Virus record (IMG/VR): IMGVR_UViG_3300022868_000005
Location: 1 to 39,366 of that record
Length of the DNA: 39,366 nt
Source of the DNA: a virus
Direction: 5' to 3' (one strand)
Below the pieces are notes generated by a model. That model saw only the letters and a list, made by a program, of their open reading frames with translations. It ran no database searches and was not told the DNA's origin. Each line of letters starts with the position of its first letter. Within the stretch, counting starts at the first letter, position 1. Of this stretch, positions 11,100-39,366 are shown one piece after another. The position numbers and the translations under genes are program-made.

Positions 11100-11100
11100 T

Positions 11101-11171: not shown

Positions 11172-11172
11172 T

Positions 11173-11243: not shown

Positions 11244-11250
11244 CTTAATA

Positions 11251-13499: not shown

Positions 13500-13506
13500 A
13501 AAAAAA

Positions 13507-24436: not shown

Positions 24437-24437
24437 A

Positions 24438-24680: not shown

Positions 24681-24701
24681 ATGTTTTAGAGGTAAAAAAA
24701 G

Positions 24702-25034
24702 ATGATGTTTAAAAATGTGAGTGGAAAAGTTGTTTTCCTTAAAATTGATAAAGAGTTTGTTAGTGTTCAATCTAATAAAGTTATTGATTTGGGTATTGGT
24801 TTTTTGGAAGATGAAAGGTTTAGTGTAATGGTTGATGAACCTGTTAAAGAAATAGTTGAAGAAATAGTTAAAGAAGAACTTGTAGTTAATGAACCTGTTG
24901 AAGAAATAGTTCTTGAAAACATGACAAAAGATGAACTTAACGATTTTGCAGCAAAAATAGGTTACGAAACAGAAATAAAAGCAAGTTGGAAAAAAAGCAA
25001 AATAATTAGTATTTTAAAAAAGTTAATAAATTAA
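24702..25034 (+). CDS. Small protein with C-terminal HeH/Rho-N-like helix pair (110 aa)
   Basis: A beta-rich N-terminus (KNVSGKVVFLKIDKEFVSVQ), an acidic Val/Glu linker with EEIVKEELVVNEPVEEIV, then NMTKDELNDFAAKIGYETEI followed by KASWKKSKIISILKKLIN. This is the helix-extended-helix pattern (M-T-K-x-E-L-x-x-x-A) often found in small phage proteins between capsid and connector genes. Probably a head or connector accessory that binds DNA or protein. Confidence 0.6.
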   Translation: MMFKNVSGKVVFLKIDKEFVSVQSNKVIDLGIGFLEDERFSVMVDEPVKEIVEEIVKEELVVNEPVEEIVLENMTKDELNDFAAKIGYETEIKASWKKSKIISILKKLIN

Positions 25035-25047
25035 GAGGTACAAAAAA

Positions 25048-26634
25048 ATGGTGAATACGATAAGACATGAAGATATAACAGGTGCGAGCTTGACAGGTAG
25101 TGATGGTGATGCTAATAGAACTTATAGTTTAGATAATACTCCTGCAATAATTGGTGGTTTTAATATTATAATATCTAATGCTGCACTTCAATATAGTGTT
25201 GATTATACTTTGTCTAATAGTGTTTTAACATTTATTAATCGTGTTTGGGATAACCAAAATATCACTCTTAATTATTTCACTCTTGGCGGAACCGATAGTG
25301 TTAGTAATACTTATACTACAACTTTAAAAGTTGCTGAAACTGTTGGACTTAGCATTTTGGTTGTTAACGAAAATGTTGGAACAGGCACTAGTAGTGCTAC
25401 AAGTTTTGATTTAGATAATGGTCAAGTGCTTGCTAGCTCTTACACTCTTAAATATAGTTCTGGAACTAGTGATAACTCTTTCACAGAGCTTACAGAAACA
25501 ACTCATTATGTTATGAGTAAAGATGGTGGAACAATAGAGTTAACAAGTGCTGGTGTCACAGCTCTTTCGACTAACGTTTTGTTTGCTGATTATTCTTATT
25601 CTAAAGACATTAGTGATTCAGAATTGGCTTACATTATTAGTTTGGCTGAAGCAGAAGTTGATAAACTTACTGGCAACTATTGGGGTACTGGTTCTGATGA
25701 TTATGAATTGTTTGATGGTCAAGCAAATTTTCAATATCCTACTACTGATTACCCTTACGCTAATGATTGGGATGAGCCTGACAGGTTTGTTCTTAGCAAA
25801 AAAGGAATACTTAATGTTACTCGTGTTAGCGTTTTAGCTACAAATGTTGGTCTTGGAAGTGTTCAAAGTTATGATAGTACTCTTAGTTCTTACGCGAATA
25901 ATACTAGTGAAGCTAACAGTTTTGAAGGTACGAGTTTTAAACCTTTTGGAAGCACTACTGCTAATGGTGATTACTTGTATGTTGGAAGCATTTACAAGTT
26001 TTTAGGGTTAACAATAAACCTTTTTACTGAAGGAGTTACTACTGGTACTAACACGATTGAGTATTGGAATGGTAGTGCTTGGACTGCTCTCACACCCACA
26101 GAAAGCGTTACGGGAGTTCTCGATATTGAGTCTAGTGGAAAGCTTAGTTGGGATAGTCTTGATTCTTGGAGTAAAACAAGTGTTAATGATAGTGACTCTT
26201 TATACTTTATACGAGTTGTTGCAAACACAACTTATAGTACTGAAGCAAAAATAGATAATGTTTATATGGACCAGGATAGCGTTTTTAGTTATAATGTTCC
26301 TTTATTCAAAGTAAGAATTGATGGTTCAGAAATTATTGTTAATGATTATCGTTTTCCTAGAGGAAGAAACAATGTGCGTATAGATTATAGTCATGGTTAC
26401 TCTAGTGTTCCTACTAGTGTTGAAGAACTTACTAGTGTGGTTGCAGGAATAGTTGTTTTTGTTAGGATTACTGGAGGAAGTTTTGACACGCCTAGTGTGT
26501 ATACTCTTCCTGAGGGAAGTGTTAGTGTTGGTCAGGTTTACGTTAATGTTCGTGAGGCTGTTAACCAGTTAGAAGCTAGAAAAAATAGTTTGCTTGATAG
26601 TGTTGGAAGAAAGATGGATATTTTTGTTTCTTAG
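25048..26634 (+). CDS. Head-tail adaptor with inserted beta domains
   Basis: 528 aa. Residues 1-80 and about 105-186 are two beta-sandwich modules of the type 'x-L-x-x-x-x-DYT-x-x-x-x-x-x-x-F'. Residues 187-215 (ISDSELAYIISLAEAEVDKL then TGNYW) look like the first helices of gp6/gp15-type head-tail adaptors. Residues 250-267 and 416-455 carry matching strands (VLSKKGILNVTRVSVL; NVRIDYSHGYSSVPTSVEEL), with residues 275-410 a large beta insertion (GTNTIEYWNGSAWTALT). The C-terminal helix fits the adaptor family. Adaptors are usually about 100-150 aa, so this one is greatly enlarged. It attaches to the portal. Confidence 0.65.
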   Translation: MVNTIRHEDITGASLTGSDGDANRTYSLDNTPAIIGGFNIIISNAALQYSVDYTLSNSVLTFINRVWDNQNITLNYFTLGGTDSVSNTYTTTLKVAETVGLSILVVNENVGTGTSSATSFDLDNGQVLASSYTLKYSSGTSDNSFTELTETTHYVMSKDGGTIELTSAGVTALSTNVLFADYSYSKDISDSELAYIISLAEAEVDKLTGNYWGTGSDDYELFDGQANFQYPTTDYPYANDWDEPDRFVLSKKGILNVTRVSVLATNVGLGSVQSYDSTLSSYANNTSEANSFEGTSFKPFGSTTANGDYLYVGSIYKFLGLTINLFTEGVTTGTNTIEYWNGSAWTALTPTESVTGVLDIESSGKLSWDSLDSWSKTSVNDSDSLYFIRVVANTTYSTEAKIDNVYMDQDSVFSYNVPLFKVRIDGSEIIVNDYRFPRGRNNVRIDYSHGYSSVPTSVEELTSVVAGIVVFVRITGGSFDTPSVYTLPEGSVSVGQVYVNVREAVNQLEARKNSLLDSVGRKMDIFVS

Positions 26635-26661
26635 GCAACACTTTAAATAATAAGTTAATCA
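26633..26661 (+). promoter_or_regulatory. Late promoter copy 2, upstream of neck/tail genes
   Basis: Identical over 29 bases to 11251-11279, overlapping the adaptor stop codon. The TTTAAATAAT box (26642-26651) is about 27 bases before ATG 26673, with no SD: a leaderless mRNA is expected. It divides the structural genes into two transcripts. Confidence 0.7.
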
Positions 26662-26672
26662 AAAAGAGTAAT

Positions 26673-27050
26673 ATGGTAACAACACACGTTTTCAAACTAG
26701 GTATTACTAATCGTCCTTTTGAAAAAATGATTGACGCTTTCAGTAAAAACTTGGCTTTCGTTGTTGTTACTAAGACTATTAAAAACATTAGTGGTGATGA
26801 AGTTTTGAGTGATGCTAGTAGCGTTACTATTCAAGGTCCTTTTTTTCGTAAAGAAAGTGATTGGAGTCAGGATAATGAAGGTTTGTTTCAGGGTGCTGAT
26901 GCGGTTTTGCTTGTTAAATCAGGTGTTGATATTAATAAGGATGATAAGGTAACTTATGATTCAGAAACTTATCGTGTTGAAAAGGTTGTTCCTAGACGGC
27001 TTGGAAAAATATTTTTTTATAGGGTTGCAAGATTGTTCTTGAACTCTTAA
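26673..27050 (+). CDS. Neck / head-closure-like protein (125 aa)
   Basis: Beta-rich: LAFVVVTKTIKNISGDEVLS, GPFFRKESDWSQDNEGLFQG, then ADAVLLVKSGVDINKDDKVT and the C-terminal SETYRVEKVVPRRLGKIFFY. The 'V-x-x-D-x-V-x-Y-x-x-x-x-Y-R-V-x-x-V' ending is typical of SPP1 gp16-type stopper/head-closure proteins. Position between adaptor and tail-completion genes agrees. First gene of the second late transcript. Confidence 0.65.
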   Translation: MVTTHVFKLGITNRPFEKMIDAFSKNLAFVVVTKTIKNISGDEVLSDASSVTIQGPFFRKESDWSQDNEGLFQGADAVLLVKSGVDINKDDKVTYDSETYRVEKVVPRRLGKIFFYRVARLFLNS

Positions 27051-27065
27051 ACTCTCAGAATAGAG

Positions 27066-27093
27066 TATAAATTGAAAACCTGGAGGTTAAAGA
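27066..27093 (+). promoter_or_regulatory. Possible TATA element and strong SD before the leader peptide
   Basis: TATAAATT at 27066-27073 is followed by TGGAGGTT (27081-27088), one of the best SD sites in the window. A small stem ACTCT/AGAGT (27051-27055, 27062-27066) precedes it. Whether the TATA is used is unclear because the upstream late promoter already covers the region. Confidence 0.35.
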
Positions 27094-27150
27094 ATGAGTG
27101 TTAAATTAATGTTTATTAAATTTTCTTCTAGTTGGTGGTTTTTAATATGA
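27094..27150 (+). CDS. 18-aa hydrophobic leader peptide coupled to the tail-completion gene
   Basis: MSVKLMFIKFSSSWWFLI follows the strong SD TGGAGGTT by five bases, and its TGA overlaps the next gene's ATG (ATGA at 27147-27150). The downstream gene has only a weak SD, so the peptide probably serves translational coupling. It could also be a tiny membrane peptide. Confidence 0.5.
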   Translation: MSVKLMFIKFSSSWWFLI

Positions 27151-27530
27151 GCGAAATAGTTGGTTTTGAAAAGTTTATTGCTGGAATCGCTAACGATTTG
27201 AACACTGAGTTAGTAATTGCTTGTCCTGTTGATACTGGTAACTTAAAACAACATATTAGGGTTGAAGCTAATGGTAATAAAATAGTTGTTTACATGCCTG
27301 AGTACGCTTTGTATTTAGAGTATGGTACTGGCATTTATGGTCCTTTGAAAAGACCTATTACTCCTAAAGAGGCTAAAGCTTTAAAGTTTAGTATTGGTAA
27401 TAAAACGGTTTTTGCTAAGAGTGTTAAAGGAATGACTCCTCAACCATTTATTAGACCTGTGTTTTTTTCAAAATTTAAAAAGATTGTTCAACAAAACGCT
27501 GAACTACACTTACAAGAGGTGGAAGTATGA
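27147..27530 (+). CDS. HK97 gp10-like tail-completion protein
   Basis: 127 aa. CPVDTGNLKQHIRVEANGNK, then YMPEYALYLEYGTGIYGPLK and MTPQPFIRPVFF are the three hallmarks of the HK97 gp10-like family (PVDTG-x-L, Y-A-x-x-x-E-x-GT, PFIRPA). It acts at the neck, joining tail tube to head. The start at 27147 is chosen for its overlap with the leader peptide; an in-frame start five codons upstream (27132) is possible. It overlaps the next gene by ATGA. Confidence 0.85.
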   Translation: MSEIVGFEKFIAGIANDLNTELVIACPVDTGNLKQHIRVEANGNKIVVYMPEYALYLEYGTGIYGPLKRPITPKEAKALKFSIGNKTVFAKSVKGMTPQPFIRPVFFSKFKKIVQQNAELHLQEVEV

Positions 27531-28189
27531 CTATAACAAATTTGTTAGATGAAGAACTTATTAAACAAGAGTTCGTAGTGTTTTTAAGGAATCAAGATGT
27601 TTTAACTATTACTCAAAGGGGTGTTACTACTCAGAGTGATACTGGAACTTTTAGTGCTGCAAGTTCTCACACGTTGGCTACTAGTCCGACTCTTGTTAAG
27701 AATGTTCGTAGTATCGTTGTTGGTGGAGTAACTCTTAAACTAAAAACTAATTACACTGTTGCTTATGATACGGGAGTTATAAGTTTTGTTGCAGCACAAA
27801 CTGGTGCTTACACTATTGGTTATGATACTGGAGCTACAGACAAAATATTTCCTGATTTTCCTAAAACAGAATTAAAAATTAGTAGTTATCCTCGTATTAG
27901 TGTTGATATTACAAGCATTGTTACTGACGATAACGATTTGAGTGGTTCTAGTAATATTAGTGGTATTTTAATAAGTGTTTATGTTTATGGTATTGGTAAA
28001 GAGCAAACGATGGATATGATGAAAAGTATTAGACAAAGCATATTGGTGAACAAAAAAAGTTTTTTTTATGTTCGTTATGTTACTCCTATTAGTGTTGGTC
28101 CAATGATTAATGAACCTTTTAGGGGTACAAAAGTTTTTACGAAAGTGTTGGAGTTAAGTGCTCCATTAAATGTTGAGGTAATTAGTTAA
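27527..28189 (+). CDS. Tail terminator-like protein with inserted beta-sandwich
   Basis: 220 aa. N-terminal helix and C-terminal part (PRISVDITSIVTDDNDLSGS, then ISVYVYGIGKEQTMDMMKSI and KVLELSAPLNVEVIS) fit tail-terminator/completion proteins at this place in the gene order. Residues about 40-105 (SIVVGGVTLKLKTNYTVAYD then TGVISFVAAQTGAYTIGY) are a beta-sandwich module also seen in the adaptor and the hub. It would cap the tail tube at the head side. Confidence 0.6.
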   Translation: MTITNLLDEELIKQEFVVFLRNQDVLTITQRGVTTQSDTGTFSAASSHTLATSPTLVKNVRSIVVGGVTLKLKTNYTVAYDTGVISFVAAQTGAYTIGYDTGATDKIFPDFPKTELKISSYPRISVDITSIVTDDNDLSGSSNISGILISVYVYGIGKEQTMDMMKSIRQSILVNKKSFFYVRYVTPISVGPMINEPFRGTKVFTKVLELSAPLNVEVIS

Positions 28190-28190
28190 A

Positions 28191-29192
28191 ATGAGTCAAG
28201 GAAGTATGTTCACAAAAATACAATATGGTACAGAAGATAGTGCTTACGGAACCGAAGCTGGTTCTTGGAGTGAAGCTATTCGTGTTCAAAGTGCAAGTAT
28301 TGAAGCTGAGAACAATTTTATTTATGATGCAGGATTAGGAGAAGGGTTGAATGCTGTTAGCACAACTTATGGTCCTTTTGATGCTAATGGTAATGTTGTT
28401 TTTAGTGTTGTAGATTTTGATATGTTAAAACACTGGATTGGTCCAAAGAGTGGTGCTGGTACGAGCGGAGACCATTACAAGCTTACTGAAGCTACAGCTC
28501 TCAGTGTTAGTAGTAGTCACTTGCAACCTTTCAGTATTGAAATGTTGAATGATGATGGTAGCGATAGTGATAGTTCAGATTTTGGTTGGGGTTGTGTTGG
28601 TAAAGATTTTAGTTTGAGTGGAGAAATTGGTGGAAAGCTTGAGTTTAGTGGAAACTTTGTTGCTCAAAAGAGTGGTTTTCGTAGTAGTGGAGAAACTTAT
28701 ACTCCTAATACTAATAGTGCTTTTGTCATGATTAATGGTACTTGGAAGTGGGGTGCTAGTCCTAGTGCTTTGAGTGGTGTTAGAAGTTTTACTTTGAATT
28801 ATGATAACAAGTTGAATACGGATACTCGTGGTTTAGATGGTCGTTTTATTGGTATTCCTAAGCTTGGTGCTCCTCGTGGTTACACTTTTGAGGTTGGTAT
28901 TATTATGGCTAATGGTTTGAAAACAACTATTATTAATGATTTTTATGGTTATGTTAATACAGGTGTTTACACTCCTGAAGATGGTAGTGTTAGTATTAGT
29001 CCTACTAGTAGTTTAGAGTTTGAGATAGAGTTTGTTAATGGTAGTAATTATGGTAATATTCAGCTTGATGAGTGTAGTATTGATAGTATTAGTAAAAGTA
29101 TTAGTTTAGGTGGTGACTTAGTATTATTAACATTTAGAGGCACTGCTAGAAAAGGTCTGGGTAATGTTCCTATTGAGTGGTGGACTGTATGA
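28191..29192 (+). CDS. Tail tube (major tail) protein
   Basis: 333 aa. MSQGSMFTKIQYGTEDSAYG is the typical start of phage tail-tube proteins (a strand followed by 'T.E..YGT'). The body contains GKDFSLSGEIGGKLEFSGNF and RSFTLNYDNKLNTDTRGLDG, matching the 'S-G-x-x-G-x-x-x-x-x-G' and 'n-N-x-x' features, and ends with NVPIEWWTV. Long for a tube protein, perhaps with an outer domain. Position after terminator and before chaperone/tape measure agrees. Confidence 0.8.
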   Translation: MSQGSMFTKIQYGTEDSAYGTEAGSWSEAIRVQSASIEAENNFIYDAGLGEGLNAVSTTYGPFDANGNVVFSVVDFDMLKHWIGPKSGAGTSGDHYKLTEATALSVSSSHLQPFSIEMLNDDGSDSDSSDFGWGCVGKDFSLSGEIGGKLEFSGNFVAQKSGFRSSGETYTPNTNSAFVMINGTWKWGASPSALSGVRSFTLNYDNKLNTDTRGLDGRFIGIPKLGAPRGYTFEVGIIMANGLKTTIINDFYGYVNTGVYTPEDGSVSISPTSSLEFEIEFVNGSNYGNIQLDECSIDSISKSISLGGDLVLLTFRGTARKGLGNVPIEWWTV

Positions 29193-29608
29193 GTTTGTTA
29201 AAGCTTTTTCGGAAAAAGAAAGAGTTGAGTGATTTTTTTGTTGATTTAAGTTTTGGAAAAGTTTATTTTAAAAAGTTGACTAACAAGGTTTTGAATGACG
29301 TGTTTAATAAAAGCTTTTTTGGTACTCAAGCGTTTAATATTAACTTGTTTTATCAACTTTTTGAGTATGAACTTTTAGATTTATCTAATAAAAAAATGGA
29401 TAACTTGTTTATTGATGATAGTAATTTGGTAAGAACAAAGATGAAAGAGTACTTATTGTTTTACAAGATTTTGCAGCCTGAAGTAAAGGTTGAAAAAAAG
29501 AGTGATGATGCAGACATTTTTCATAAAGAAGATGTTGAATGGTTTAATAACCAAAAAAGTGTTTCTCTAAAAAAATATGTTGTTGGGTTAAAAAATGGCG
29601 GAAAATAA
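29189..29608 (+). CDS. Tail assembly chaperone-like protein
   Basis: 139 aa, helical, with LLKLFRKKKELSDFFVDLSF at the N-terminus and a middle of short helices (NINLFYQLFEYELLDLSNKK). It lies exactly where lambda gpG-type chaperones lie, between tube and tape measure, and is coupled to both (ATGA upstream, 14-base overlap downstream). The next frame is +1 relative to it; an A-AAA-AAT stretch precedes the stop, but a -1 slip would terminate after about a dozen codons. Assignment by position. Confidence 0.55.
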   Translation: MSLLKLFRKKKELSDFFVDLSFGKVYFKKLTNKVLNDVFNKSFFGTQAFNINLFYQLFEYELLDLSNKKMDNLFIDDSNLVRTKMKEYLLFYKILQPEVKVEKKSDDADIFHKEDVEWFNNQKSVSLKKYVVGLKNGGK

Positions 29609-30449
29609 TATTGCTACGGCTGAAGTAACTATTAATACTAGTCGTGTTACTGGTAACGTTAAAAAGTCGGGCGGTAATAATAGTAAAGAATTAAAAGTGT
29701 TGACAAGTATTTTGAAGAGTATGAAACAAAGCACGGCTATCGCTGTTAAAAGTAGTAAGTTAAGTCTTAGTGGTTTGGCTGGTGCTGCTGGAATCGCTGG
29801 CGGTATTGGTAGTGTTTTAACAGGTATTGGTGTTGCAATAGCTGGTGCCGTTGTTGGAACTCAAGCAGCAATAAATGAGGCTGGTCGTACAGGTGGAACA
29901 ACTTTTAATGGGGTTAGTAGTACGGGGTATTTTCAAAAAGCTGTTATTGATGGCGAAGATAAAGTTATTGAAGTTAATGAGCGTACTGGAGAAATAGTTA
30001 ATATTTTGACTATGCGTGAAGCTCGTGAAAGAGGAATACTTGATGCTAATGATGAAGTTTATGCTAACGTATTAGCTAGTAAAGGTAAATGGGCTGAGAA
30101 TATTAAAAACTTGGATGTTCAAGGTGCTACTCTTCATTTAAGTCTTCAACAATTAATTGGTTTGCTTGATGAGGAAGAACTTGCTAAAAGAAACATGACT
30201 GAGTATAATCGTTTGTTGCAAATAAGGAATGAAAAGCTTGCTGAAAGTATAAGAAAAACTTATGGTGGAAGAACTGATGCTAATAACAATTTTGTTAGTG
30301 ATAGTTTACAAGTAACTTTTATTAATCCTACTTATATGGATTTGGTTCATTCACAACAAGCTTATTATGATGAACAGGTTGCTAGCGGACACACTGCTAG
30401 TATTCAAATGATAGAAAACGTTTTCCCTGAATGGGTTTGGGATATGTAA
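29595..30449 (+). CDS. Very short tape measure protein candidate
   Basis: 284 aa. N-terminal basic helix (NSKELKVLTSILKSMKQSTA), a Gly/Ala-rich hydrophobic segment at about residues 59-92 (GLAGAAGIAGGIGSVLTGIG, then VAIAGAVVG) like the membrane-active segments of tape measures, and helical regions to the C-terminus FPEWVWDM. By position (after chaperone, before distal tail) it is the tape measure. At roughly 0.15 nm per residue it would set a tail of only about 40 nm. Tape measures are usually over 600 aa. Confidence 0.6.
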   Translation: MAENNIATAEVTINTSRVTGNVKKSGGNNSKELKVLTSILKSMKQSTAIAVKSSKLSLSGLAGAAGIAGGIGSVLTGIGVAIAGAVVGTQAAINEAGRTGGTTFNGVSSTGYFQKAVIDGEDKVIEVNERTGEIVNILTMREARERGILDANDEVYANVLASKGKWAENIKNLDVQGATLHLSLQQLIGLLDEEELAKRNMTEYNRLLQIRNEKLAESIRKTYGGRTDANNNFVSDSLQVTFINPTYMDLVHSQQAYYDEQVASGHTASIQMIENVFPEWVWDM

Positions 30450-30462
30450 AGAGGTATGAATA

Positions 30463-30873
30463 ATGGCGAAACCAACTTTGAGTATTTTTACAGGAGACCA
30501 AAACTTTGGTCAAGTATATAAAGAAACTAATCAGATTAATGTTAAATTTGTAGAGTTCAACTTGTTGTTTAGTGATACTACTGGTAACACCGCGGTTAAT
30601 GCTCGTGGAAAAACTAGGCTTATAATGGTTCAGGGTGCTAATGATGGTGCTGGTTGGACTGGTGGAACGCCTGATTTAAAGATTAAAGCTTTTATTCAAG
30701 ATGTAGGGTTTTGGGTTAGAGGTGTTGGAGAGACTGGAAGCATTCAGCAACATATTGTTTATACGGATAGTTTTGGCACTGTTTACGATGTTTATTGTGT
30801 TGATTGGAGTTGGGTGAGAAGTTTTAATGATCCTAATAGGGTGTTGTGGAGTTTAATGTTAAAAGAAGCATAA
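30463..30873 (+). CDS. Distal tail protein-like (136 aa)
   Basis: Beta-rich: SIFTGDQNFGQVYKETNQIN, then KIKAFIQDVGFWVRGVGETG and YTDSFGTVYDVYCVDWSWVR. The size and the place between tape measure and hub match small Dit-type or tube-like ring proteins of siphovirus tails. SD GAGGTATG. Family assignment is positional. Confidence 0.5.
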   Translation: MAKPTLSIFTGDQNFGQVYKETNQINVKFVEFNLLFSDTTGNTAVNARGKTRLIMVQGANDGAGWTGGTPDLKIKAFIQDVGFWVRGVGETGSIQQHIVYTDSFGTVYDVYCVDWSWVRSFNDPNRVLWSLMLKEA

Positions 30874-30875
30874 AA

Positions 30876-32369
30876 ATGGTTTTGTATTATAGTTTTTTGT
30901 TGGATAGTGTAGAAGTTGGAGACCCAATACTTGATGGTAGTGGGTATTTGATTGATGGTACAGAAGTTGAACATACTCGTTTAAATAATGAGGGTGATGG
31001 TTGCACTATTGTTCTTAGTGAAAGTGTTGTTGATGTTAAAACTCCTTTGGTTGGTCAAAGCGTTATTATAAGTCGTGGAGAAACTACTTCTACGGATAAG
31101 TACATTTTTCGTGGTAACGTTAAAGAAGTAAAGTTTGAAAACAATTCTTATAAGGTTTTGTGTCGTAACCACTTGCATGCTTTAAAATATAAACTTTTAA
31201 CTATTAGTTATGATAAAAATACTGATACTGAAGCTGGAGAGTATAGTGCCATTTTTAGCGATATTATTACTAGAGCAGGATTAACTCCTAGCGTTGTTGC
31301 TAGTGGAACAGGTACGGGAAGCATTACTGCTGACAAGTTTATTAGTAATAAAAAAACTTATTTGAATAGGCTTAATAGTATTGCTGTTGTTCTTAATTGG
31401 TTTTTTTATGAAGATTATGATGAGGAGTGGATTCGTTTAGAACCTAAAGGCTATGTTGATTACGAAACGGTTTTGACTGTTGGAACTAATGTTGTTAATT
31501 ATTTAAAGTGGTCAAGCAATTTTGAACCTGTTAGAAACAATATTACTATTGAGGGTTTTTTTGAAGAAGACACAGAAGTTTTGAGCGAGACTGGTAATGG
31601 TATTACAACAACTTTCTTTTTTGGTTATACTCCTATTGTTACTAATTGTGATATTGATGGGACTCAACAAGTTAGGGGTATTAGTGGTGTCACAGAAACT
31701 TATGATTACACTGTTGATGTTGATAAAAAGAGTTACACGTTTGTTACGGCTCCAGCAATCGGAGAAGTTATTTCTATGAATTATTCTCATAAAATTTTGA
31801 GTAGTGTTAGTGGAAAAAATAGTAGTAGTATTGATACTTATGATTTGGAGCAAGAAGAAAGTTTTAGGTTTGAAGATATTTTCACTGTTGATGATGCAGA
31901 AAATCGTTTGTCACAATTTTTGAATGCTCTTGGAACACCTATTAGTAGTACTACTGCTTTTGTTACTGAAAGAGATGTTCGTCCAGGAATGCGTGTTCAA
32001 GTTGTTGATGCTAGTAATACTGATTTTAATGGTTTTTATATTGTTGAAAGGGTTAAAATGAAGTATGGTTTAGAGTATGATGTTGTTGATATTGGTATTC
32101 CTCGTTTTAAGCCTAGAGAGTTGTTGGATAGTATTAATGAAAGGCTTAACGATTTGAAGGGTACTGGTAGTGATTTCAACGAAATTATTCGTCAGCTTAT
32201 TCAATTGTTTCATAATATTAGTTATGAAAGAGATAATGTTACTGGAGAAAAAAGGGATAAAGGTCTTAGTTTCATTTTTGATGATCCTGATTCAGAGTTT
32301 GATGATGGTGTTCACTTGTTTGATTGGCAGGGTGATGCGTGGGAAGATTTTGTTAATACAGATTATTAG
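30876..32369 (+). CDS. Tail hub / baseplate protein (gp27/gpD-like)
   Basis: 497 aa. N-terminal barrel (DGCTIVLSESVVDVKTPLVG, ISRGETTSTDKYIFRGNVKE then VKFENNSYKVLCRNHLHALK), a middle IFSDIITRAGLTPS helix, and TYLNRLNSIAVVLNWFFYED, the pattern of tail hub proteins (gp27/gpD fold). An inserted beta-sandwich at about residues 225-315 (CDIDGTQQVRGISGVTETYD then YTVDVDKKSYTFVTAP) resembles modules of the adaptor and terminator. The C-terminal 'RDVRPGMRVQVVDAS' barrel completes the hub. It would cap the distal tail. Confidence 0.7.
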   Translation: MVLYYSFLLDSVEVGDPILDGSGYLIDGTEVEHTRLNNEGDGCTIVLSESVVDVKTPLVGQSVIISRGETTSTDKYIFRGNVKEVKFENNSYKVLCRNHLHALKYKLLTISYDKNTDTEAGEYSAIFSDIITRAGLTPSVVASGTGTGSITADKFISNKKTYLNRLNSIAVVLNWFFYEDYDEEWIRLEPKGYVDYETVLTVGTNVVNYLKWSSNFEPVRNNITIEGFFEEDTEVLSETGNGITTTFFFGYTPIVTNCDIDGTQQVRGISGVTETYDYTVDVDKKSYTFVTAPAIGEVISMNYSHKILSSVSGKNSSSIDTYDLEQEESFRFEDIFTVDDAENRLSQFLNALGTPISSTTAFVTERDVRPGMRVQVVDASNTDFNGFYIVERVKMKYGLEYDVVDIGIPRFKPRELLDSINERLNDLKGTGSDFNEIIRQLIQLFHNISYERDNVTGEKRDKGLSFIFDDPDSEFDDGVHLFDWQGDAWEDFVNTDY

Positions 32370-32381
32370 AGGTTGATATTT

Positions 32382-33311
32382 ATGGCAAATGGTGAAGTAG
32401 TTACAAATAATGGAAAGAATTGGTTACTTAACAGAGCGTATAAGGGTACTAGTGATTATGATGAAGTTTATTATATGAAAGTCGGTATTGGATTAACCAC
32501 GCCTGTAGTTACTGATACGGGTATGGAGATTCCTATTCCGATTACTGCTGGAACCGTTAATGATGATGGTGATAACATTTTTACTGGTTCAGATGGTGGA
32601 GATAATAGTACTGATAATGTTGTTCGTTATAAACCTGGTGCTGGAGTTGTTGATGTTACTGCTCAAAACTTGATTAAAAATGATACTAATGCTACGGCTA
32701 TTTGGACTATTGCCGATTTGAGTAGTGCAGGAACAGTTATTACTGGCACTAAGTATGTTGCTTTGTGGTTTTACGTTCTTGACGCTGCCGCTCTTGCAAA
32801 GTTTGTTAGTTCTGGTACTTGTTTAGAAATAAAGCTTGGAAGCGATTCTAGTAATTATTACAGTATTACAAAAGAGGCTAGTGACTTAGTGGTTGGTTGG
32901 AATTGGGTTTACAGTTTTCCTGATACTGTTGCTGATTTGACTGAAACGGGTACTGTGACTGGAAGTATTGATACTTTTATTATAGAGGTTACTACGAATA
33001 ATGCTACTGACGAGTTTACTGCTGCTACGGATGCTACTGCTGATATTGTTTATGATTTGCTTAGAACTTATGAGGATTCTGACTTGTTGAAAACGTTGGA
33101 ATCTGGTTTTCCTAGTTTTAACACTACTGATAAGACTGTGACTACTCGTATAAAAATTGCGGTTACTCAAGCTAACGGGTTTGACATTTCAGAAGTTGGT
33201 GTTTTCACTAAAGACACTGTTAATATAATGATTACGCATGACGTGTTCACGGCTGAAAGTAAAGGTTCGGGTGACGAGTTCGCTTTTAATATTACAGATA
33301 AAATTGTGTGA
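32382..33311 (+). CDS. Baseplate/tail-fibre protein with jelly-roll insertion
   Basis: 309 aa. The N-terminus (ANGEVVTNNGKNWLLNRAYK, then YMKVGIGLTTP) and C-terminus (TRIKIAVTQANGFDISEVGV) together form a fold seen in phage proteins that couple fibres to the tail tip. Residues about 85-225 are a jelly-roll-like carbohydrate-binding type module (TKYVALWFYVLDAAALAKFV, LEIKLGSDSSNYYSITKEAS). SD AGAGGTTG. Probably contributes to receptor binding. Confidence 0.6.
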   Translation: MANGEVVTNNGKNWLLNRAYKGTSDYDEVYYMKVGIGLTTPVVTDTGMEIPIPITAGTVNDDGDNIFTGSDGGDNSTDNVVRYKPGAGVVDVTAQNLIKNDTNATAIWTIADLSSAGTVITGTKYVALWFYVLDAAALAKFVSSGTCLEIKLGSDSSNYYSITKEASDLVVGWNWVYSFPDTVADLTETGTVTGSIDTFIIEVTTNNATDEFTAATDATADIVYDLLRTYEDSDLLKTLESGFPSFNTTDKTVTTRIKIAVTQANGFDISEVGVFTKDTVNIMITHDVFTAESKGSGDEFAFNITDKIV

Positions 33312-33321
33312 GGTATAAAAA

Positions 33322-34281
33322 ATGACAAATAGATTAAATGGGGATAATGCTAATTGGACTAGTGAAAACCCTGCTAGTGCTGATATGAATGATACTTTTG
33401 GTAGTGTTGTAAGTAACACTATTGCTGCTACTGAAACAATGATTCAAGCTACAAAAGTTAGTGCTGATGCTACTGTTACAGATATTACTAGGACTAATGC
33501 TCAAGTTGACGTGTTTAGTGATAGTGGTGGTTATAATAATACTTTAAACACTGGTAGCTCAACTGCTTTGTATGATGCTACTAATGATTATTATACTTGT
33601 CAAGATGGTGGAACTACTGAAACAGAAACGGCAGGAGGAACATCCACGACAGACACAGACCATACTGTTACTTTAACTGTTAACCAATTATCTTATATTA
33701 ACCAAGTAAAATTTGTTACAAACGGAAATTGTACTTGGGATGTTACTATTGCTATAAGTGGAACTGGAACTGTTGCGACCGATTCGGGTGCTGCAGGTGG
33801 TGCTGAAACCGTAACATCTACTTTTGTGTTTTCAGATTATAGTGCTATTTTTGCAGATGGTGATACTGTTACTGTTAGAATTGAAGTTACCGATAATATT
33901 AATGTGACTGCTGCCGCAGCTTATGATGGAACAATATTTGACCATACTAGTCAAGTTACACCCACTACTGATTGGGTTACTTTTACTTCAATAGTTTATA
34001 GTAATAGTATTTTATTAACTACTAGTTCCACTAAGGCGTCTAATATTGCTAGTTGTTTGGTTAATGCTGAAACAACAACGCCAACTGACACGTCTATAAC
34101 TGTTGATGTTAGTACTGATGGTGGAAGCGTTTACGATGTTAGTGGTCAAAGTTTGAGAAGCGTTTTAGCTTTGGATAATGATGATACCGATTTGGTTTTA
34201 AGATTCAATTTGGTAACTACGAATGATGATGCGACTCCTACTATTAGTAGTTATGCTGTTCAATTATTTAAAGGTGGATGA
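33322..34281 (+). CDS. Tail fibre/tip protein (319 aa)
   Basis: Ser/Thr/Asp-rich beta protein: N-terminal NGDNANWTSENPASADMNDT then helical linker ETMIQATKVSADA, followed by beta modules (DTDHTVTLTVNQLSYINQVK; TVTVRIEVTDNINVTAAAAY; TDTSITVDVSTDGGSVYDV). The last structural gene of the tail cluster, typical for a receptor-binding protein. SD TGAGGTATA. It ends in an ATGA overlap with the peptidase gene. Confidence 0.6.
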   Translation: MTNRLNGDNANWTSENPASADMNDTFGSVVSNTIAATETMIQATKVSADATVTDITRTNAQVDVFSDSGGYNNTLNTGSSTALYDATNDYYTCQDGGTTETETAGGTSTTDTDHTVTLTVNQLSYINQVKFVTNGNCTWDVTIAISGTGTVATDSGAAGGAETVTSTFVFSDYSAIFADGDTVTVRIEVTDNINVTAAAAYDGTIFDHTSQVTPTTDWVTFTSIVYSNSILLTTSSTKASNIASCLVNAETTTPTDTSITVDVSTDGGSVYDVSGQSLRSVLALDNDDTDLVLRFNLVTTNDDATPTISSYAVQLFKGG

Positions 34282-35093
34282 AAGTGAATGTGTTTCAAAA
34301 ACTTTGGAAACTTTTTATTGAAAGCGATAATCAATCATTACTTGATGATATTGAAAAGTTACGTATAAAACTTAGTAATGTTGAATGTTTGAATATTAAG
34401 CTGAATATTAGTTTGGGTAACGAACAAGAGCTTGTTGATGAATTAGAATTAGAGATTAAAGATTTAGTTAAACACAAAAAGACTTTATTATTAAGTGATG
34501 TGTTAAAACCTAAAGATATTATGTATAAATGGAAGCCTACAAAAAACACGTTTTTAAGGCACTCCTTAGATTCTTTTTCTAATGATGGTGAATATCAAGG
34601 TAAGTATTTAAGCTTCCTTATAGGGAAAGGATTAAAGGAAAAATACGCTTCTGAAAAAGAGTTAATTATTAAAACTTATTTGATAGCTAGAAAGTACTTG
34701 CAAAGCGATAATGACAATTACGATACAGACCAAGAAAGTTTTGGAACTGAAGAGTATTGGTTGACACCGCAAGAAGCGTTCAGTTACTACGTTAATGGTG
34801 ACGAGGGTGATTGTGATGACTATTCAGCGTTTATTTATGGGTGTTTAGTTACATCGCTGTTACACTTTGGTTACGATACTACTAACTTGTTTAGGGCTGA
34901 CATAAAAATTATTGGCAGTTGTGGTCACGCAGTAATACAATGGTGGAACGGAGAACAATTCTTGCACTTAGAATCAACGTTTGCTCCTGAAAGAGCATAC
35001 AAAATAATAAGTAGTGAAAGAAATATTGCTAAAAGCGTTTACACTGATGTTATACACTTTTTTAATGAAGAACAAGAGTATGTATTAAAATGA
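34278..35093 (+). CDS. Transglutaminase-like cysteine peptidase with coiled-coil N-terminus
   Basis: 271 aa. Residues 15-75 form a coiled coil (LLDDIEKLRIKLSNVECLNI onward). The C-terminal domain holds a papain/transglutaminase-type triad: C179 in GDEGDCDDYSAFIYG, H217 in CGHAVIQWW, and E232 (HLEST) as the likely third residue. YWLTPQEAFSYYVNG just before the Cys is typical of the family. Archaeal-virus pseudomurein endopeptidases belong to the same superfamily, so a cell-envelope peptidase for entry or lysis is plausible; protein processing is an alternative. It is coupled to the fibre gene, so it could also ride on the virion. Confidence 0.65.
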   Translation: MKVNVFQKLWKLFIESDNQSLLDDIEKLRIKLSNVECLNIKLNISLGNEQELVDELELEIKDLVKHKKTLLLSDVLKPKDIMYKWKPTKNTFLRHSLDSFSNDGEYQGKYLSFLIGKGLKEKYASEKELIIKTYLIARKYLQSDNDNYDTDQESFGTEEYWLTPQEAFSYYVNGDEGDCDDYSAFIYGCLVTSLLHFGYDTTNLFRADIKIIGSCGHAVIQWWNGEQFLHLESTFAPERAYKIISSERNIAKSVYTDVIHFFNEEQEYVLK

Positions 35094-35347
35094 TTGAAGA
35101 ACCAGAAGAAAAGCTTGAAGAAATAACAGAACAAGAGTTCACACACAGTTTAATGCTAGTACAAAAAAGTTATTTACAAGAAATTACTGAGTACACAAAA
35201 CTATATCATAACTGTGATGATATTGAACACCATATTAACTTTTTGCATGCTAACAATTATCAAGTAACATTTTATAAAACAGAAGAAGGAAGTATCACTT
35301 ATGAGTATAAAGAAAAGGAACCTGTTGGTTTTGGAAGAAGCGGATAG
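35090..35347 (+). CDS. Hypothetical acidic protein (85 aa)
   Basis: EEPEEKLEEITEQEFTHSLM, then helix with CDDIEHHINFLHANNYQVTF and a beta end (KTEEGSITYEYKEKE). It starts in the peptidase stop (ATGA). A second frame starts inside its last third. No family is recognised. Confidence 0.55.
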   Translation: MIEEPEEKLEEITEQEFTHSLMLVQKSYLQEITEYTKLYHNCDDIEHHINFLHANNYQVTFYKTEEGSITYEYKEKEPVGFGRSG

Positions 35348-35417
35348 GTTGAACGCTTTACCACACAGACCCTGTGAAAACGTAATACCTTTATTGGAGG
35401 ATGATTGGAATGATTAA
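35301..35417 (+). CDS. Possible overlapping small protein (38 aa)
   Basis: MSIKKRNLLVLEEADRLNAL, then PHRPCENVIPLLEDDWND. GAAGGAAG lies nine bases upstream of the ATG. It overlaps the 35090 gene by 47 bases in another frame and the next start by 8, filling an otherwise empty 60-base gap. Moderate support. Confidence 0.4.
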   Translation: MSIKKRNLLVLEEADRLNALPHRPCENVIPLLEDDWND

Positions 35418-35577
35418 AATAGAATTTTATAATCAGTGGAAAGATATTAAAAAAAACTTTTTTGGAATATCTCTCATAGAAATAAACTTTATGAGTTTTG
35501 AAAATAGGATTATTAGGTTAGTCCTTTTAGGATTGTGTTTTAGTTTATGTTTAAAAAGAAAAAGAAAATATTTTTAA
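35410..35577 (+). CDS. Small membrane protein (55 aa)
   Basis: An amphipathic first half (MIKIEFYNQWKDIKKNFFGI) and one C-terminal membrane segment (RIIRLVLLGLCFSLC) followed by KRKRKYF, so the basic tail should stay inside. SD GGAGG within the preceding frame. It could be an alternative holin candidate or a membrane partner of the peptidase. Confidence 0.45.
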   Translation: MIKIEFYNQWKDIKKNFFGISLIEINFMSFENRIIRLVLLGLCFSLCLKRKRKYF

Positions 35578-35603
35578 CTTAAAAATATGGAGGCAAAAAT
35601 AAA

Positions 35604-35813
35604 ATGACTAAAATAAAAAAAATACATATACCTTTAGATGTTGAACATTTAAAAGCTATAAAAAGTTGTGCAGAACATATGGAATCTGAAGTGGTTGGTG
35701 AAAAATGGAAAAAAGCATATTATAATTTATCAAAATCAGCTAAAATTTTAATAAATTTAATGCCTGGAACTGTTAAAGAAGAAAGTATTTATCAAAAGTA
35801 TGGAGAATGCTAA
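35604..35813 (+). CDS. Small hypothetical protein (69 aa)
   Basis: MTKIKKIHIPLDVEHLKAIK, then a helical body (KWKKAYYNLSKSAKILINLM) and PGTVKEESIYQKYGEC. The N-terminal strand and following helix loosely suggest a ribbon-helix-helix or regulator fold, but the pattern is not decisive. SD TGGAGGC. Confidence 0.5.
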   Translation: MTKIKKIHIPLDVEHLKAIKSCAEHMESEVVGEKWKKAYYNLSKSAKILINLMPGTVKEESIYQKYGEC

Positions 35814-35814
35814 A

Positions 35815-35970
35815 ATGTGGAAAGAATTAATGGTTAAATTTGGAAAACTTTTATTGATTTGGGGTGCAAACCTATTATGGAACTTTGCGGACACTGACAA
35901 AAATGGTGAACTGAGTCAAAAAGAATTGAAAAGCTTGTTTAATAAAATACAAAAAATATTAAAAAAGTAA
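35815..35970 (+). CDS. Membrane microprotein with a canonical EF-hand loop (51 aa)
   Basis: Residues 10-25 (GKLLLIWGANLLWNFA) are a hydrophobic helix. Residues 26-37 are DTDKNGELSQKE, a complete EF-hand calcium loop with ligands D26, D28, N30, backbone of E32, S34 and E37, and the invariant Gly at position 6 (G31). Helix LKSLFNKIQKILKK follows. The protein is therefore a helix-loop-helix with a membrane-like entering helix. A Ca-responsive switch next to the peptidase and membrane genes could time lysis; that is inference. Confidence 0.6.
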   Translation: MWKELMVKFGKLLLIWGANLLWNFADTDKNGELSQKELKSLFNKIQKILKK

Positions 35971-35971
35971 A

Positions 35972-36790
35972 ATGACAATACAAAACAATGTTGATAACAA
36001 AAACTCTTGGGAAAACATTATTGCTAATTCTAATATGGGTGTCAAGGTAAACTTTCACAAGTTCGATGTTGATAAACAAACTATTGTGTTGATGGGTGAT
36101 GAACATATTGGGTCTAATTTGTATGATGAGTATTCTCATAAAAAAAATATTGAGTGGTGTTTAGAGAATAGTATTCCTATTATTTTGATGGGTGATGAGT
36201 TAGAGACTGCTACTAAGACTAGTGTTGGTGCTGGAGTGTTTGAGCAGGACCAGATTGTTCAGGAGCAGTTGGAGAAGTGTGTTGGATTGTATAAGGATTT
36301 GGCTCATGAAGGTTTAATACTTGGAAACCATGTGGGTAATCATGAGGCTAGAGTTTACAAACATAGTGGAACTAATTTGTCTAAGATTCTTAGCATGATG
36401 CTTAATGTTACGTATTTGGGTGTTGGTGCAGTAACAATGTTTAGAATAGGAAAACAAACATACACTTTGTACACTACGCATGGAAACTCGGGTGCTAGAA
36501 TGCCTCATACAAAGATTGCTAATGTTATTAAGATGCAGTCAATGATTGATGTTGACATTTATGCTGCTGGTCACGTTCACCAACTTTCTCATCATGTGCA
36601 GAATTATTACGAGGTTGATAAGAGGAAAAGGATTATTGTTGAAGCTCAGAAGCATTATATTTTGACTGGTAGTTACTTGAAGCATTGGGGTGGTTACGCT
36701 CACATTATGAATATGGAACCTGCAAGAGTTGGCAGTCCTAAACTAAAACTTGGTGGTTTAGAGAGGAGTATACGGGTGAGTTTAGGATGA
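35972..36790 (+). CDS. Calcineurin-like metallophosphoesterase
   Basis: 272 aa. All motifs of the superfamily are present: D43-x-H45 (MGDEHIGS), G74-D75 (LMGDELE), G122-N123-H124-E125 (GNHE), H170 (YTTHG) and G200-H201-V-H203 (AAGHVH), giving a two-metal centre. Similar stand-alone phosphoesterases occur in many phages; substrates (nucleic-acid ends, nucleotides or phosphoproteins) are unknown. It starts one base after the EF-hand gene's stop and ends in an ATGA overlap, so it is in the same operon. Confidence 0.85.
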   Translation: MTIQNNVDNKNSWENIIANSNMGVKVNFHKFDVDKQTIVLMGDEHIGSNLYDEYSHKKNIEWCLENSIPIILMGDELETATKTSVGAGVFEQDQIVQEQLEKCVGLYKDLAHEGLILGNHVGNHEARVYKHSGTNLSKILSMMLNVTYLGVGAVTMFRIGKQTYTLYTTHGNSGARMPHTKIANVIKMQSMIDVDIYAAGHVHQLSHHVQNYYEVDKRKRIIVEAQKHYILTGSYLKHWGGYAHIMNMEPARVGSPKLKLGGLERSIRVSLG

Positions 36791-37008
36791 ATATTGGAGA
36801 AATTGTTAACAAGTTTTATATGAATGAGTTTCCTGATAGTACTGAACTCGTTATTAATTCTGAAGATAAAAAAGATTTGTTAATTGCTCAGAAGAAGTAT
36901 AATCATGCTACTACTGGTAATTACAAAATTTATACTAGTCTTAGTACGGTGGTTGAAGAGGATAAGAAGTATTATAGTTTAAGGTTTAGTTTTGATAAAA
37001 CTTATTGA
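36787..37008 (+). CDS. Hypothetical protein (73 aa)
   Basis: MNIGEIVNKFYMNEFPDSTE, then LVINSEDKKDLLIAQKKYNH and a beta end YKIYTSLSTVVEEDKKYYSL. Its ATG overlaps the phosphoesterase stop. No family is recognised. Confidence 0.55.
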   Translation: MNIGEIVNKFYMNEFPDSTELVINSEDKKDLLIAQKKYNHATTGNYKIYTSLSTVVEEDKKYYSLRFSFDKTY

Positions 37009-37010
37009 AA

Positions 37011-37088
37011 ATGATGTGGATTTCAAGAACGGATTATGTTGGATTCGTAGATAAATATGCTGATTTATTTAAACCAATATTAAAATGA
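37011..37088 (+). CDS. Possible 25-aa peptide
   Basis: MMWISRTDYVGFVDKYADLF then KPILK, ending in an ATGA overlap with the nuclease-like gene at 37085. It may serve coupling. Confidence 0.35.
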   Translation: MMWISRTDYVGFVDKYADLFKPILK

Positions 37089-37429
37089 ATGAGAAAGAAC
37101 AAATAAGTAGGTTAGAATACTGGATTAATAAGTGTCCAATGTTTAAAGATTATAAAGGAATATACACTAATGTTCAAATTAATAATAAAAGAAGAACTGT
37201 TCTAGAGCTTGACTATGTTGGTATTTATTCTTCTTTTGATTTAACTGTTGAGGTTAAAGGTCATTATAGTAGGGCTTCTATTAAAAAAAAGAATAAGCAG
37301 ATTAAAAAGTATAAGAGGAATGTTTATTTGATTCAGGATAAGCTTGGTCTCGAGAGGAGAACAATGTATTTTTTTAGTGCTTTTTTTGATAATGATTTAA
37401 TGCATATAGAGTATGAGGGTAAGAAGTGA
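37085..37429 (+). CDS. PD-(D/E)XK-like nuclease
   Basis: 114 aa. The core shows D43 (LELDYVG), then E56-V-K58 (LTVEVKG) separated by 12 residues, followed by a basic helix KKKNKQIKKYKRN: the strand-D, strand-ExK, helix order of PD-(D/E)XK nucleases such as Holliday-junction resolvases. It may resolve branched DNA before packaging. It overlaps both neighbours. Bases 37179-37429 are nearly identical to 38055-38305, where an in-frame TAG replaces the CAG for Q84. Confidence 0.6.
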   Translation: MNEKEQISRLEYWINKCPMFKDYKGIYTNVQINNKRRTVLELDYVGIYSSFDLTVEVKGHYSRASIKKKNKQIKKYKRNVYLIQDKLGLERRTMYFFSAFFDNDLMHIEYEGKK

Positions 37430-37545
37430 AGACTAAGTGTGTGTTTTGTGGATGTGAGAACGAGTGTTGGAATAAGTATAGTGAGTCTTGGCATTGTGCA
37501 GATTGTGGTAGAATGAAAAATTATGTTGCAGATGCTGAAGTTCTT
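37179..37545 (+). repeat. Source copy of duplicated nuclease/zinc-ribbon segment
   Basis: 37179 to about 37545 corresponds to 38055 to about 38421. The two are nearly identical through the nuclease 3' end and most of the zinc-ribbon gene. The only differences seen in the nuclease part are G37273 against T and C37334 against T. After about 37525 they diverge mainly at synonymous third positions, so this is not a simple assembly duplication. Confidence 0.8.
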
Positions 37546-37566
37546 GATAAGGTGTACAATGTCTAG
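37426..37566 (+). CDS. Small zinc-ribbon protein, copy 1 (46 aa)
   Basis: The GTG start overlaps the nuclease stop (GTGA). Cysteines: CVFCGC near residues 4-9, C14, and CADC near 26-29 following WH. A compact ribbon. An intact paralogue lies at 38302-38442 with a different C-terminus (KVNEL instead of KVYNV). It is coupled to the nuclease, suggesting joint action on DNA. Confidence 0.6.
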   Translation: MKTKCVFCGCENECWNKYSESWHCADCGRMKNYVADAEVLDKVYNV

Positions 37567-37753
37567 AGAAACGCCGCCAGAAATAAGATATGAGATGCAA
37601 AATGTTCTAGATGAGTACTATTATAATCGTGTTACTGACGACGAAGTTTTTAAGAAGTATAATTATTATAAAAGATTAAATTATTGTTATGAGGACTTTT
37701 TTAGTGCGTATTTGGGTTATATGGCTGAGAAAAAGTATGTTTCTGTTAAGTGA
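37559..37753 (+). CDS. Hypothetical protein (64 aa), last gene of the operon
   Basis: MSRETPPEIRYEMQNVLDEY, then YYNRVTDDEVFKKYNYYKRL, helical and aromatic-rich. The start at 37559 overlaps the end of the zinc-ribbon gene; the same frame is open to 37523. It is followed by a T-run terminator. No family is recognised. Confidence 0.55.
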   Translation: MSRETPPEIRYEMQNVLDEYYYNRVTDDEVFKKYNYYKRLNYCYEDFFSAYLGYMAEKKYVSVK

Positions 37754-37756
37754 TTG

Positions 37757-37780
37757 TGTTTTTTTACACTTTTTTTTGTT
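37757..37780 (+). terminator. T-run terminator
   Basis: GTGTTTTTTTACACTTTTTT: GTGT/ACAC flank a first T-run and a second T-run follows directly. It ends the operon that started upstream of the tail genes; the promoter repeat begins two bases later. Confidence 0.6.
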
Positions 37781-37781
37781 A

Positions 37782-37884
37782 GTATAGGTTTTACCATACC
37801 AGAAAGCAAACATTTATATATTACCTATGCGTAATAAGTATTGAAAAGTGTGAAAACACACACGAGAGGTAAAAAAATGGAAAC
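37782..37884 (+). promoter_or_regulatory. Duplicated promoter-leader, copy 1
   Basis: 103 bases identical to 38498-38600. They contain a near-palindrome TATAGGTTTTACCATA, the promoter AAACATTTATATATTA (TATA box 37813-37820), an expected start near 37843, a GTGTG-AAAA-CACAC hairpin (37848-37861) in the leader, the SD GAGAGGT and the first codons ATGGAAAC. It drives the chimeric ORF at 37877. Confidence 0.75.
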
Positions 37885-38212
37885 TTTAGGGATTAAAAAA
37901 AAGGTTGAATACCAAGTGTCAGTTATGAAAAATGATGATGGTAAATTATTGCATTCTAATGCTGATAAGCGTAGTTTTGCGGTTTCAAAGATTTTGGAAG
38001 AGGATGCAGAGTTTCAGAAAAACTTGTGTATTGTTGAAAATAATCGAAAGCTAGTTAATAATAAAAGAAGAACTGTTCTAGAGCTTGACTATGTTGGTAT
38101 TTATTCTTCTTTTGATTTAACTGTTGAGGTTAAAGGTCATTATAGTAGTGCTTCTATTAAAAAAAAGAATAAGCAGATTAAAAAGTATAAGAGGAATGTT
38201 TATTTGATTTAG
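37877..38212 (+). pseudogene. Chimeric ORF: junction-gene fragment fused in frame to nuclease core
   Basis: 111 codons. MET comes from the promoter repeat. Residues up to ENNRKL-V come from the middle of the junction gene (171-base identity to 39196-39366). From NNKRRT onward it is the nuclease with D, E and K of the active site. Both joins are in frame. The frame ends at TAG 38210, which replaces the CAG for nuclease Q84; 30 further codons of nuclease sequence remain after it (38213-38304). It is either a decaying recombination product or a new short fusion protein; the intact promoter and SD mean it could be expressed. Confidence 0.6.
37885..38055 (+). repeat. 171-base direct repeat of the junction gene
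   Basis: Identical to 39196-39366. Its last 127 bases are also bases 1-127. After the repeat the sequence continues differently in the two places (TAATAATAAAAG here, GTTTGCTTTAG after base 127), which explains why assembly broke here. Confidence 0.9.
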
Positions 38213-38301
38213 GATAAGCTTGGTCTCGAGAGGAGAACAATGTATTTTTTTAGTGCTTTTTTTGATAATGATTTAATGCATATAGAGTATGAGGGTAAGA
38301 A

Positions 38302-38442
38302 GTGAAGACTAAGTGTGTGTTTTGTGGATGTGAGAACGAGTGTTGGAATAAGTATAGTGAGTCTTGGCATTGTGCAGATTGTGGTAGAATGAAAGATTAT
38401 GTTGCGGATGCAGAAGTATTAGATAAAGTTAATGAATTATGA
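38302..38442 (+). CDS. Small zinc-ribbon protein, copy 2 (46 aa)
   Basis: GTG start, same CVFCGC / C / CADC pattern as 37426-37566. One substitution (N to D after GRMK) and several synonymous changes near the 3' end, then a different tail (KVNEL). It is intact although the nuclease copy before it is broken. It overlaps the end of the nuclease remnant (GTGA). Confidence 0.6.
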   Translation: MKTKCVFCGCENECWNKYSESWHCADCGRMKDYVADAEVLDKVNEL

Positions 38443-38444
38443 TT

Positions 38445-38470
38445 CTTTGTGGTTTTTTCTTGTTTTTTTG
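38445..38470 (+). terminator. T-run terminator
   Basis: TTTGTGGTTTTTTCTTGTTT followed by TTTT after the second zinc-ribbon gene. No hairpin; a typical archaeal T-rich end. It precedes the second promoter repeat. Confidence 0.5.
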
Positions 38471-38497
38471 GGTTGAATTCTAGGGTTAGAGGTGTCT

Positions 38498-38600
38498 GTA
38501 TAGGTTTTACCATACCAGAAAGCAAACATTTATATATTACCTATGCGTAATAAGTATTGAAAAGTGTGAAAACACACACGAGAGGTAAAAAAATGGAAAC
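38498..38600 (+). promoter_or_regulatory. Duplicated promoter-leader, copy 2
   Basis: Identical to 37782-37884 over 103 bases, including the TATA box (38529-38536), the CACAC hairpin leader, SD GAGAGGT and ATGGAAAC. It drives the early operon 38593-39077-junction-2381. The gene-specific sequence differs right after the fourth base following the ATG. Confidence 0.75.
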
Positions 38601-38919
38601 AAAACAAATATTGCAAATGAAAAAAACAAAACTAAAATTTATAAAATTTGATGGTGTTAAAATAGAAGACGGGTTATGTACAAGTTTACCAACAAGGATT
38701 CATTGTAACGATTTTCCTTTTTATACTTTGAGTTCTGTTAGTGCTTTTTTTAGTACAGATTTTAAAAAAACAGAAGATGGTAAAACTAAGTCTTCAGATA
38801 CAAGTTTGACTCATACTGAAATTCTTAAATGGTTAAATGAATCTGAAAGTTTTGAATATCGAAATGGCGAATTAGTTATTTATCATTCAAGGTACACTTT
38901 TTTTGTGGAGGTGCAATAA
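38593..38919 (+). CDS. Hypothetical protein (108 aa), first gene of the junction operon
   Basis: METKQILQMKKTKLKFIKFD, then a mixed alpha/beta body with CNDFPFYTLSSVSAFFSTDF and a C-terminal GELVIYHSRYTFFVEVQ. No family is recognised. The strong promoter and SD suggest high early expression. Confidence 0.65.
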   Translation: METKQILQMKKTKLKFIKFDGVKIEDGLCTSLPTRIHCNDFPFYTLSSVSAFFSTDFKKTEDGKTKSSDTSLTHTEILKWLNESESFEYRNGELVIYHSRYTFFVEVQ

Positions 38920-38921
38920 AG

Positions 38922-39077
38922 ATGGTTAATGAGATAATTATATACTCTAATGAGTTAAACAATGAAGATTATGATGAAATCAAAAGTTTTTTTGATAAAA
39001 AGTTGAACACAGACCTTGTTCTTAGTTTTGAGAATGCTAAGGGTTTGATGTGTTGTGTTCTTAATGATAGGGGGTAA
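38922..39077 (+). CDS. Small hypothetical protein (51 aa)
   Basis: MVNEIIIYSNELNNEDYDEI, then a helix and LVLSFENAKGLMCCVLNDRG. Strand-helix-strand pattern. GGAGGTGC at the end of the previous gene is its SD. No family is recognised. Confidence 0.55.
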   Translation: MVNEIIIYSNELNNEDYDEIKSFFDKKLNTDLVLSFENAKGLMCCVLNDRG

Positions 39078-39082
39078 AAAAA

Positions 39083-39366
39083 ATGAATAGAATAGAATTG
39101 GAAAAGTTTTTGAATAACAAAATCGTAAATATAGGTAATTTAAAAAGAAAGATTTTTGAAAATAGCATTCTTATGAAATCTATCGAGGATAACAATTTAG
39201 GGATTAAAAAAAAGGTTGAATACCAAGTGTCAGTTATGAAAAATGATGATGGTAAATTATTGCATTCTAATGCTGATAAGCGTAGTTTTGCGGTTTCAAA
39301 GATTTTGGAAGAGGATGCAGAGTTTCAGAAAAACTTGTGTATTGTTGAAAATAATCGAAAGCTAGT
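39083..39366 (+). CDS. N-terminal part of the junction-spanning hypothetical protein
   Basis: Starts MNRIELEKFLNNKIVNIGNL, charged helices, then the part shared with the chimeric ORF (GIKKKVEYQVSVMKNDDGKL). It continues in frame at base 128 to the stop at 212, total 122 aa (369 bases with stop). SD GGGGGT. No family is recognised; its coupling to the annealing-like gene suggests a replication or recombination accessory. Confidence 0.7.
   Translation, partial: MNRIELEKFLNNKIVNIGNLKRKIFENSILMKSIEDNNLGIKKKVEYQVSVMKNDDGKLLHSNADKRSFAVSKILEEDAEFQKNLCIVENNRKL

Follow-up and report, generated by a model that had tools for sequence, protein, structure and literature searches.

Partial tandem duplication through illegitimate (unequal) recombination is known in phage genomes. 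Terminal repeats at assembler k lengths, with peaks at, for example, 55, 77, and 99, arise from circular templates (CheckV, PMC8116208). We analyzed the whole length of the 39,366 bp virus record IMGVR_UViG_3300022868_000005 (positions 1–39,366; the window), which encodes a terminase, a portal, and an HK97-type capsid gene, and in which bases 1–127 are identical to the last 127 bases. As the record closes on itself with exactly 127 bp, a typical assembler k-mer length, position 39,366 is not a biological end, and the closed circle measures 39,239 bp. The junction gene crosses the contig end: its 5' part occupies 39083–39366, and it runs on at 128–212 of the circle as an intact frame of 122 aa (MNRIELEKF...SKWEVEE). 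We consider it fairly probable that this is a circularly assembling, tailed-virus-like genome carrying a partial tandem duplication, most likely derived from a single unequal crossover with essentially no homology, in which two haplotypes of one virus took part.

The features of the locus all lie on the + strand in the block order X1-Y-P1-R1 | X2-Z-P2-W-R2, and its repeats, joints, and frames can be read directly from the record. The leader P (103 bp, including the first 8 coding bases) is present at 37782–37884 (P1) and 38498–38600 (P2), with 103 of 103 positions matching. R, a 171 bp middle part of the junction gene, is repeated equally exactly (171/171) at 37885–38055 (R1) and at the contig end, 39196–39366 (R2), and its last 127 bases are the contig's first 127 (the end overlap at 1–127, + strand). 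The 375 bp block X, which comprises the 3' part of a putative nuclease gene and a CxxC 'zinc-ribbon' gene, shows nine mismatches between X1 (37179–37553) and X2 (38055–38429) and contains an exact 184 bp core, Q (37335–37518, repeated at 38211–38394). X, P, and R follow one another in equal order and direct orientation in both copies, which lie side by side, as in a partial tandem duplication. These repeats are not due to chance, and a first, sequence-only reading of this stretch had placed the P and R repeats and the duplicated nuclease/zinc-ribbon block correctly. The remaining blocks are the small ORF Y (37559–37753), found in the first copy only, whose ATG overlaps the zinc-ribbon stop; the T-rich spacer Z (38443–38497) ahead of P2, plausibly an operon end judging from its sequence; and W, which holds W1 (38593–38919), a 108-aa ORF read from P2 for which the viral contig scans found no relatives, and W2 (38922–39077), an ORF of 51 aa.

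P1 carries a TATA-like, archaeal-type element (37812–37821) preceded by AAACA, a GTGTG-AAAA-CACAC hairpin (5 bp), and an SD-like GAGAGGT, while no sigma-70 signal above chance was found in the region. In each copy, P is preceded by the end of a set of genes and by a T-rich spacer, a position that would be expected of an inter-operon promoter, and we regard P as a putative promoter. The ACAAACATTTATATATA element of P has a second copy (20/22) at window 2526–2547, upstream of another gene, a hint that promoter and host may be of archaeal type. P ends just past the start codon, and it might be a recurrent exchange point at which first genes (R-type, W1-type) are swapped behind one promoter, with the duplication capturing one moment of this promoter-anchored cassette exchange; we consider this very unlikely.

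The sole novel joint needed to explain the arrangement is R|X2 at 38055/38056, where the two sequences share 1 bp (T). The difference at P|R is that W is missing in the first copy between 'ATGGAAAC' (P) and 'TTTAGGG' (R). Because one tandem-duplication joint, R|X2, and the absence of W in one copy account for all blocks, the stitching together of three pieces proposed earlier for this locus is unneeded.

The mismatches between X1 and X2 are clustered. The first 340 bp hold two, namely an R->S change and the stop described below (99.4% identical), and the other seven fall within 37519–37551, the last 33 bp, and comprise six synonymous changes and one N->D exchange. The probability that seven of nine mismatches fall among the final 35 of the 375 positions is about 1e-6. 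P and R are 100% identical between the copies, unlike the 3' end of X, and beyond X, Y and Z are unrelated to each other. The second zinc-ribbon copy (38302–38442, 46 aa) had been described as intact and diverged at synonymous sites; it is indeed open and its changes are mostly synonymous, but within X these changes occur only in the final 33 bp and include the N->D exchange, and the last three codons of the gene differ as well (YNV vs NEL). This pattern suggests a recombination boundary with a diverged relative and not clock-like or gradual divergence in place, and because the mismatches cluster at the 3' end of X, the two halves may come from two haplotypes. A similar distribution of mismatches could, as a variant, result from an older duplication whose copies were homogenised by gene conversion.

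The intact copy of the putative nuclease gene is a 114-aa ORF (37085–37429) with an EVK motif by eye and a match to NERD (PF08378) of 16.6 bits, which is under the 22.1 cut-off and makes the nuclease label a weak one. A PDB search with this protein was empty, and an AlphaFold model built with no alignment (mean pLDDT 40) was left unused. The first copy of the 'zinc-ribbon' gene (37426–37566, 46 aa, GTG start, TAG stop) gave no family match above cut-off, and its label rests on CxxC pairs.

The chimeric ORF P1-R1-X2 (37877–38212) encodes 111 aa (METLGIKKK...NRKLV|NNKRRTVLELDY...NVYLI*) and stays open across the joints until it ends at a new TAG. The sequence-only reading was right that both joins are in frame and that a CAG of the nuclease copy has become TAG (37334 C vs 38210 T); a second private change in X2, the R->S exchange (37273/38149), lies upstream of this TAG. 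Recoding of TAG as glutamine was rejected: seven of the 49 listed genes terminate in TAG, and six of these seven have another stop within 31 codons. Since TAG serves as an ordinary stop here, recoding cannot rescue the chimera. The same reading had seen in the locus an ongoing modular gene birth or decay; on the birth view, the chimeric ORF would be an expressed, selected new gene behind a copied promoter. The in-frame joins would agree with this proposal, as would the start codon and leader hairpin that P brings with it, but because both joins fall in frame by luck with a chance of 1/9, they are not evidence of design. Moreover, the chimera lacks the start and end of the nuclease, its frame being halted by the private TAG inside the nuclease-like domain, and viral contig scans found no homologues of either parent gene beyond copies of the same virus. 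No sign of chimera function was found. The birth of a selected gene appears highly improbable, and the chimera is most likely an accidental, truncated by-product that would have no function.

Whether the blocks are joined as printed depends on the assembly. In the k=127 graph of the circle, four branching vertices bound R (171 bp) and Q (184 bp), exact repeats that are longer than k and have two entries and two exits each, and enumeration at k=127 yielded exactly two single-circle orders that use the identical 127-mers. Because R and Q exceed 127, the order is ambiguous: short-read assembly cannot fully fix it, and it is partly unproven. One of these vertices, the end of R, from which paths lead into X2 and into the 3' half of the junction gene, coincides exactly with the contig break. 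This coincidence indicates that the graph, and hence the reads, contained both exits from R, and both joins were thus probably drawn from 127-mers in reads rather than introduced by scaffolding. IMGVR_UViG_3300005939_002148, a second assembly, matches window 21066–38004 with 100% identity and passes through Q into Y-P1 before ending 120 bp into R1; a third assembly, 3300025698_000066, matches window 1271–23232, again at 100%. X1-Y-P1-R1 (first 120 bp) is backed by two assemblies, which are possibly not of independent libraries. The second assembly stops 51 bp short of the R|X2 joint; this joint was found in no second record, and the end of R was absent from the other viral records scanned. Speculatively, the end of 3300005939_002148 (L004 12033), 120 bp into R, might fit a branch point there at k near 121.

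Misassembly had been named as the finding that would overturn the sequence-only reading. Here, the second assembly confirms X1-Y-P1 and the first 120 bp of R1, but 127-mers alone are also compatible with another order, where the chimera is not what lies fused behind P. With the duplication real and the printed order wrong, the blocks would run nuclease-Q-zinc ribbon'-Z-P2-W-R-X2-Q-zinc ribbon-Y-P1-R-junction gene 3' half. P1 would then drive a short intact junction gene (METLGIKKK...SKWEVEE), and the chimera would be the long junction gene (its 5' end) fused to X2. This order is among the two that the graph permits, and its P1-R-128.. frame is open to a natural stop; however, the second assembly connects the unique flank via Q to Y-P1-R, as printed, and paired reads normally bridge 171–184 bp. 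We consider the alternative order unlikely. It also seems distinctly unlikely that the circle blends at least two variants occurring together, some having and some lacking W or the duplication, so that no single genome has both copies as drawn. X1/X2 and Y/Z/W do resemble alternative alleles between shared blocks, and the 3300005939 contig ends within R, but the edge from R to X2 bears two private changes, which sets it apart from a simple chimera of the other sequence and means that some molecule must contain it. The private SNPs of X2 and the diverged zinc-ribbon tail, absent from every other known copy, likewise make it extremely improbable that R|X2 is a pure artefact, a library chimera kept by the assembler. 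The joint does occur in one record only and with a 1-bp microhomology, but low-depth chimeric edges are usually dropped by assemblers.

The terminase is about 40–53% identical to those of many IMG/VR, Bacteroidota, and candidate-phyla contigs. The duplicated locus was absent from the whole records of these terminase relatives, and the relative records examined contained short-period or closely spaced repeats only, with no duplication of the present kind. Viral contig scans with the phosphoesterase, P, the end of R, the junction gene, W1, and the nuclease, as well as a phage blastn for relatives of the region, returned copies of the same virus or nothing, and in the host contig scan, Bacteroidota and candidate-phylum contigs had only the terminase in common with the virus. 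No haplotype without the duplication (a separate alpha or beta genome, as defined below) was found among these records, and no relative carries the region. PADLOC gave weak RT-Toprim matches only, and literature searches found nothing specific. The signals in P would fit an archaeal host, but the terminase relatives are mostly Bacteroidota and candidate-phyla contigs. Such a duplication is unusual among the examined relatives, yet the type of event is well known, and the feature is real but ordinary.

Elsewhere in the window, a 208-aa protein (194–820) belongs to the phage family of unknown function phrog_22961 and has one distant viral relative (L041), which is 46% identical over the C-terminal half. 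A 317-aa ORF at 6356–7309 consists largely of an 18-bp (6-residue) repeat, e.g., VYGDARVSGNA, and resembles a hexapeptide-repeat beta-helix protein. Two tRNA genes, Pro(tgg) and Thr(tgt), lie side by side at 11100–11244, just ahead of the portal gene, and the frame at 13423–14535 begins, as judged by eye, like a prohead protease and continues with repeated EEPEKVEPVEPVV units.

For the single-crossover origin that we favor, we infer that the end of R in one molecule was joined to the middle of the nuclease gene in another molecule of this virus that differed slightly from the first. Haplotype alpha (nuclease, zinc ribbon, Y, P, R) would make up the left arm, and haplotype beta (truncated nuclease X2, zinc ribbon', Z, P, W1-W2, and the junction gene with R) the right arm. 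A single crossover of this kind would yield one new joint, R|X2, and the chimera behind P1 would be a by-product halted early at TAG. Because the beta downstream operon (P2-W1-W2-junction gene) and the alpha upstream operon would both be kept intact, nothing essential would be lost, and the extra copy would be free to decay. The locus may thus serve as a worked example of how one unequal crossover, combined with short-read assembly across repeats longer than k, can mimic multi-step modular gene construction. Its biological weight would depend on expression of the chimera or on recurrence of promoter-anchored module exchange among related viruses, both of which are hypothetical.

The 127-bp overlap at the ends of this circular contig resembles the k-length terminal repeats described with CheckV (PMC8116208), but the present contig's break is non-random and lies exactly at the end of R. 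The virus shares its terminase with the tailed-phage terminase lineage of Bacteroidota phages and candidate-phyla contigs, whereas almost no other gene matches. As in phage partial tandem duplications by illegitimate recombination, the locus has a direct multi-gene repeat, one near-microhomology-free joint, a truncated gene fusion at that joint, and a second copy that is decaying. Unlike those duplications, the present case comes from one metagenome-derived record only, and the central modules (Y/Z, W) are not the same in its two copies, a difference that suggests two parental haplotypes.
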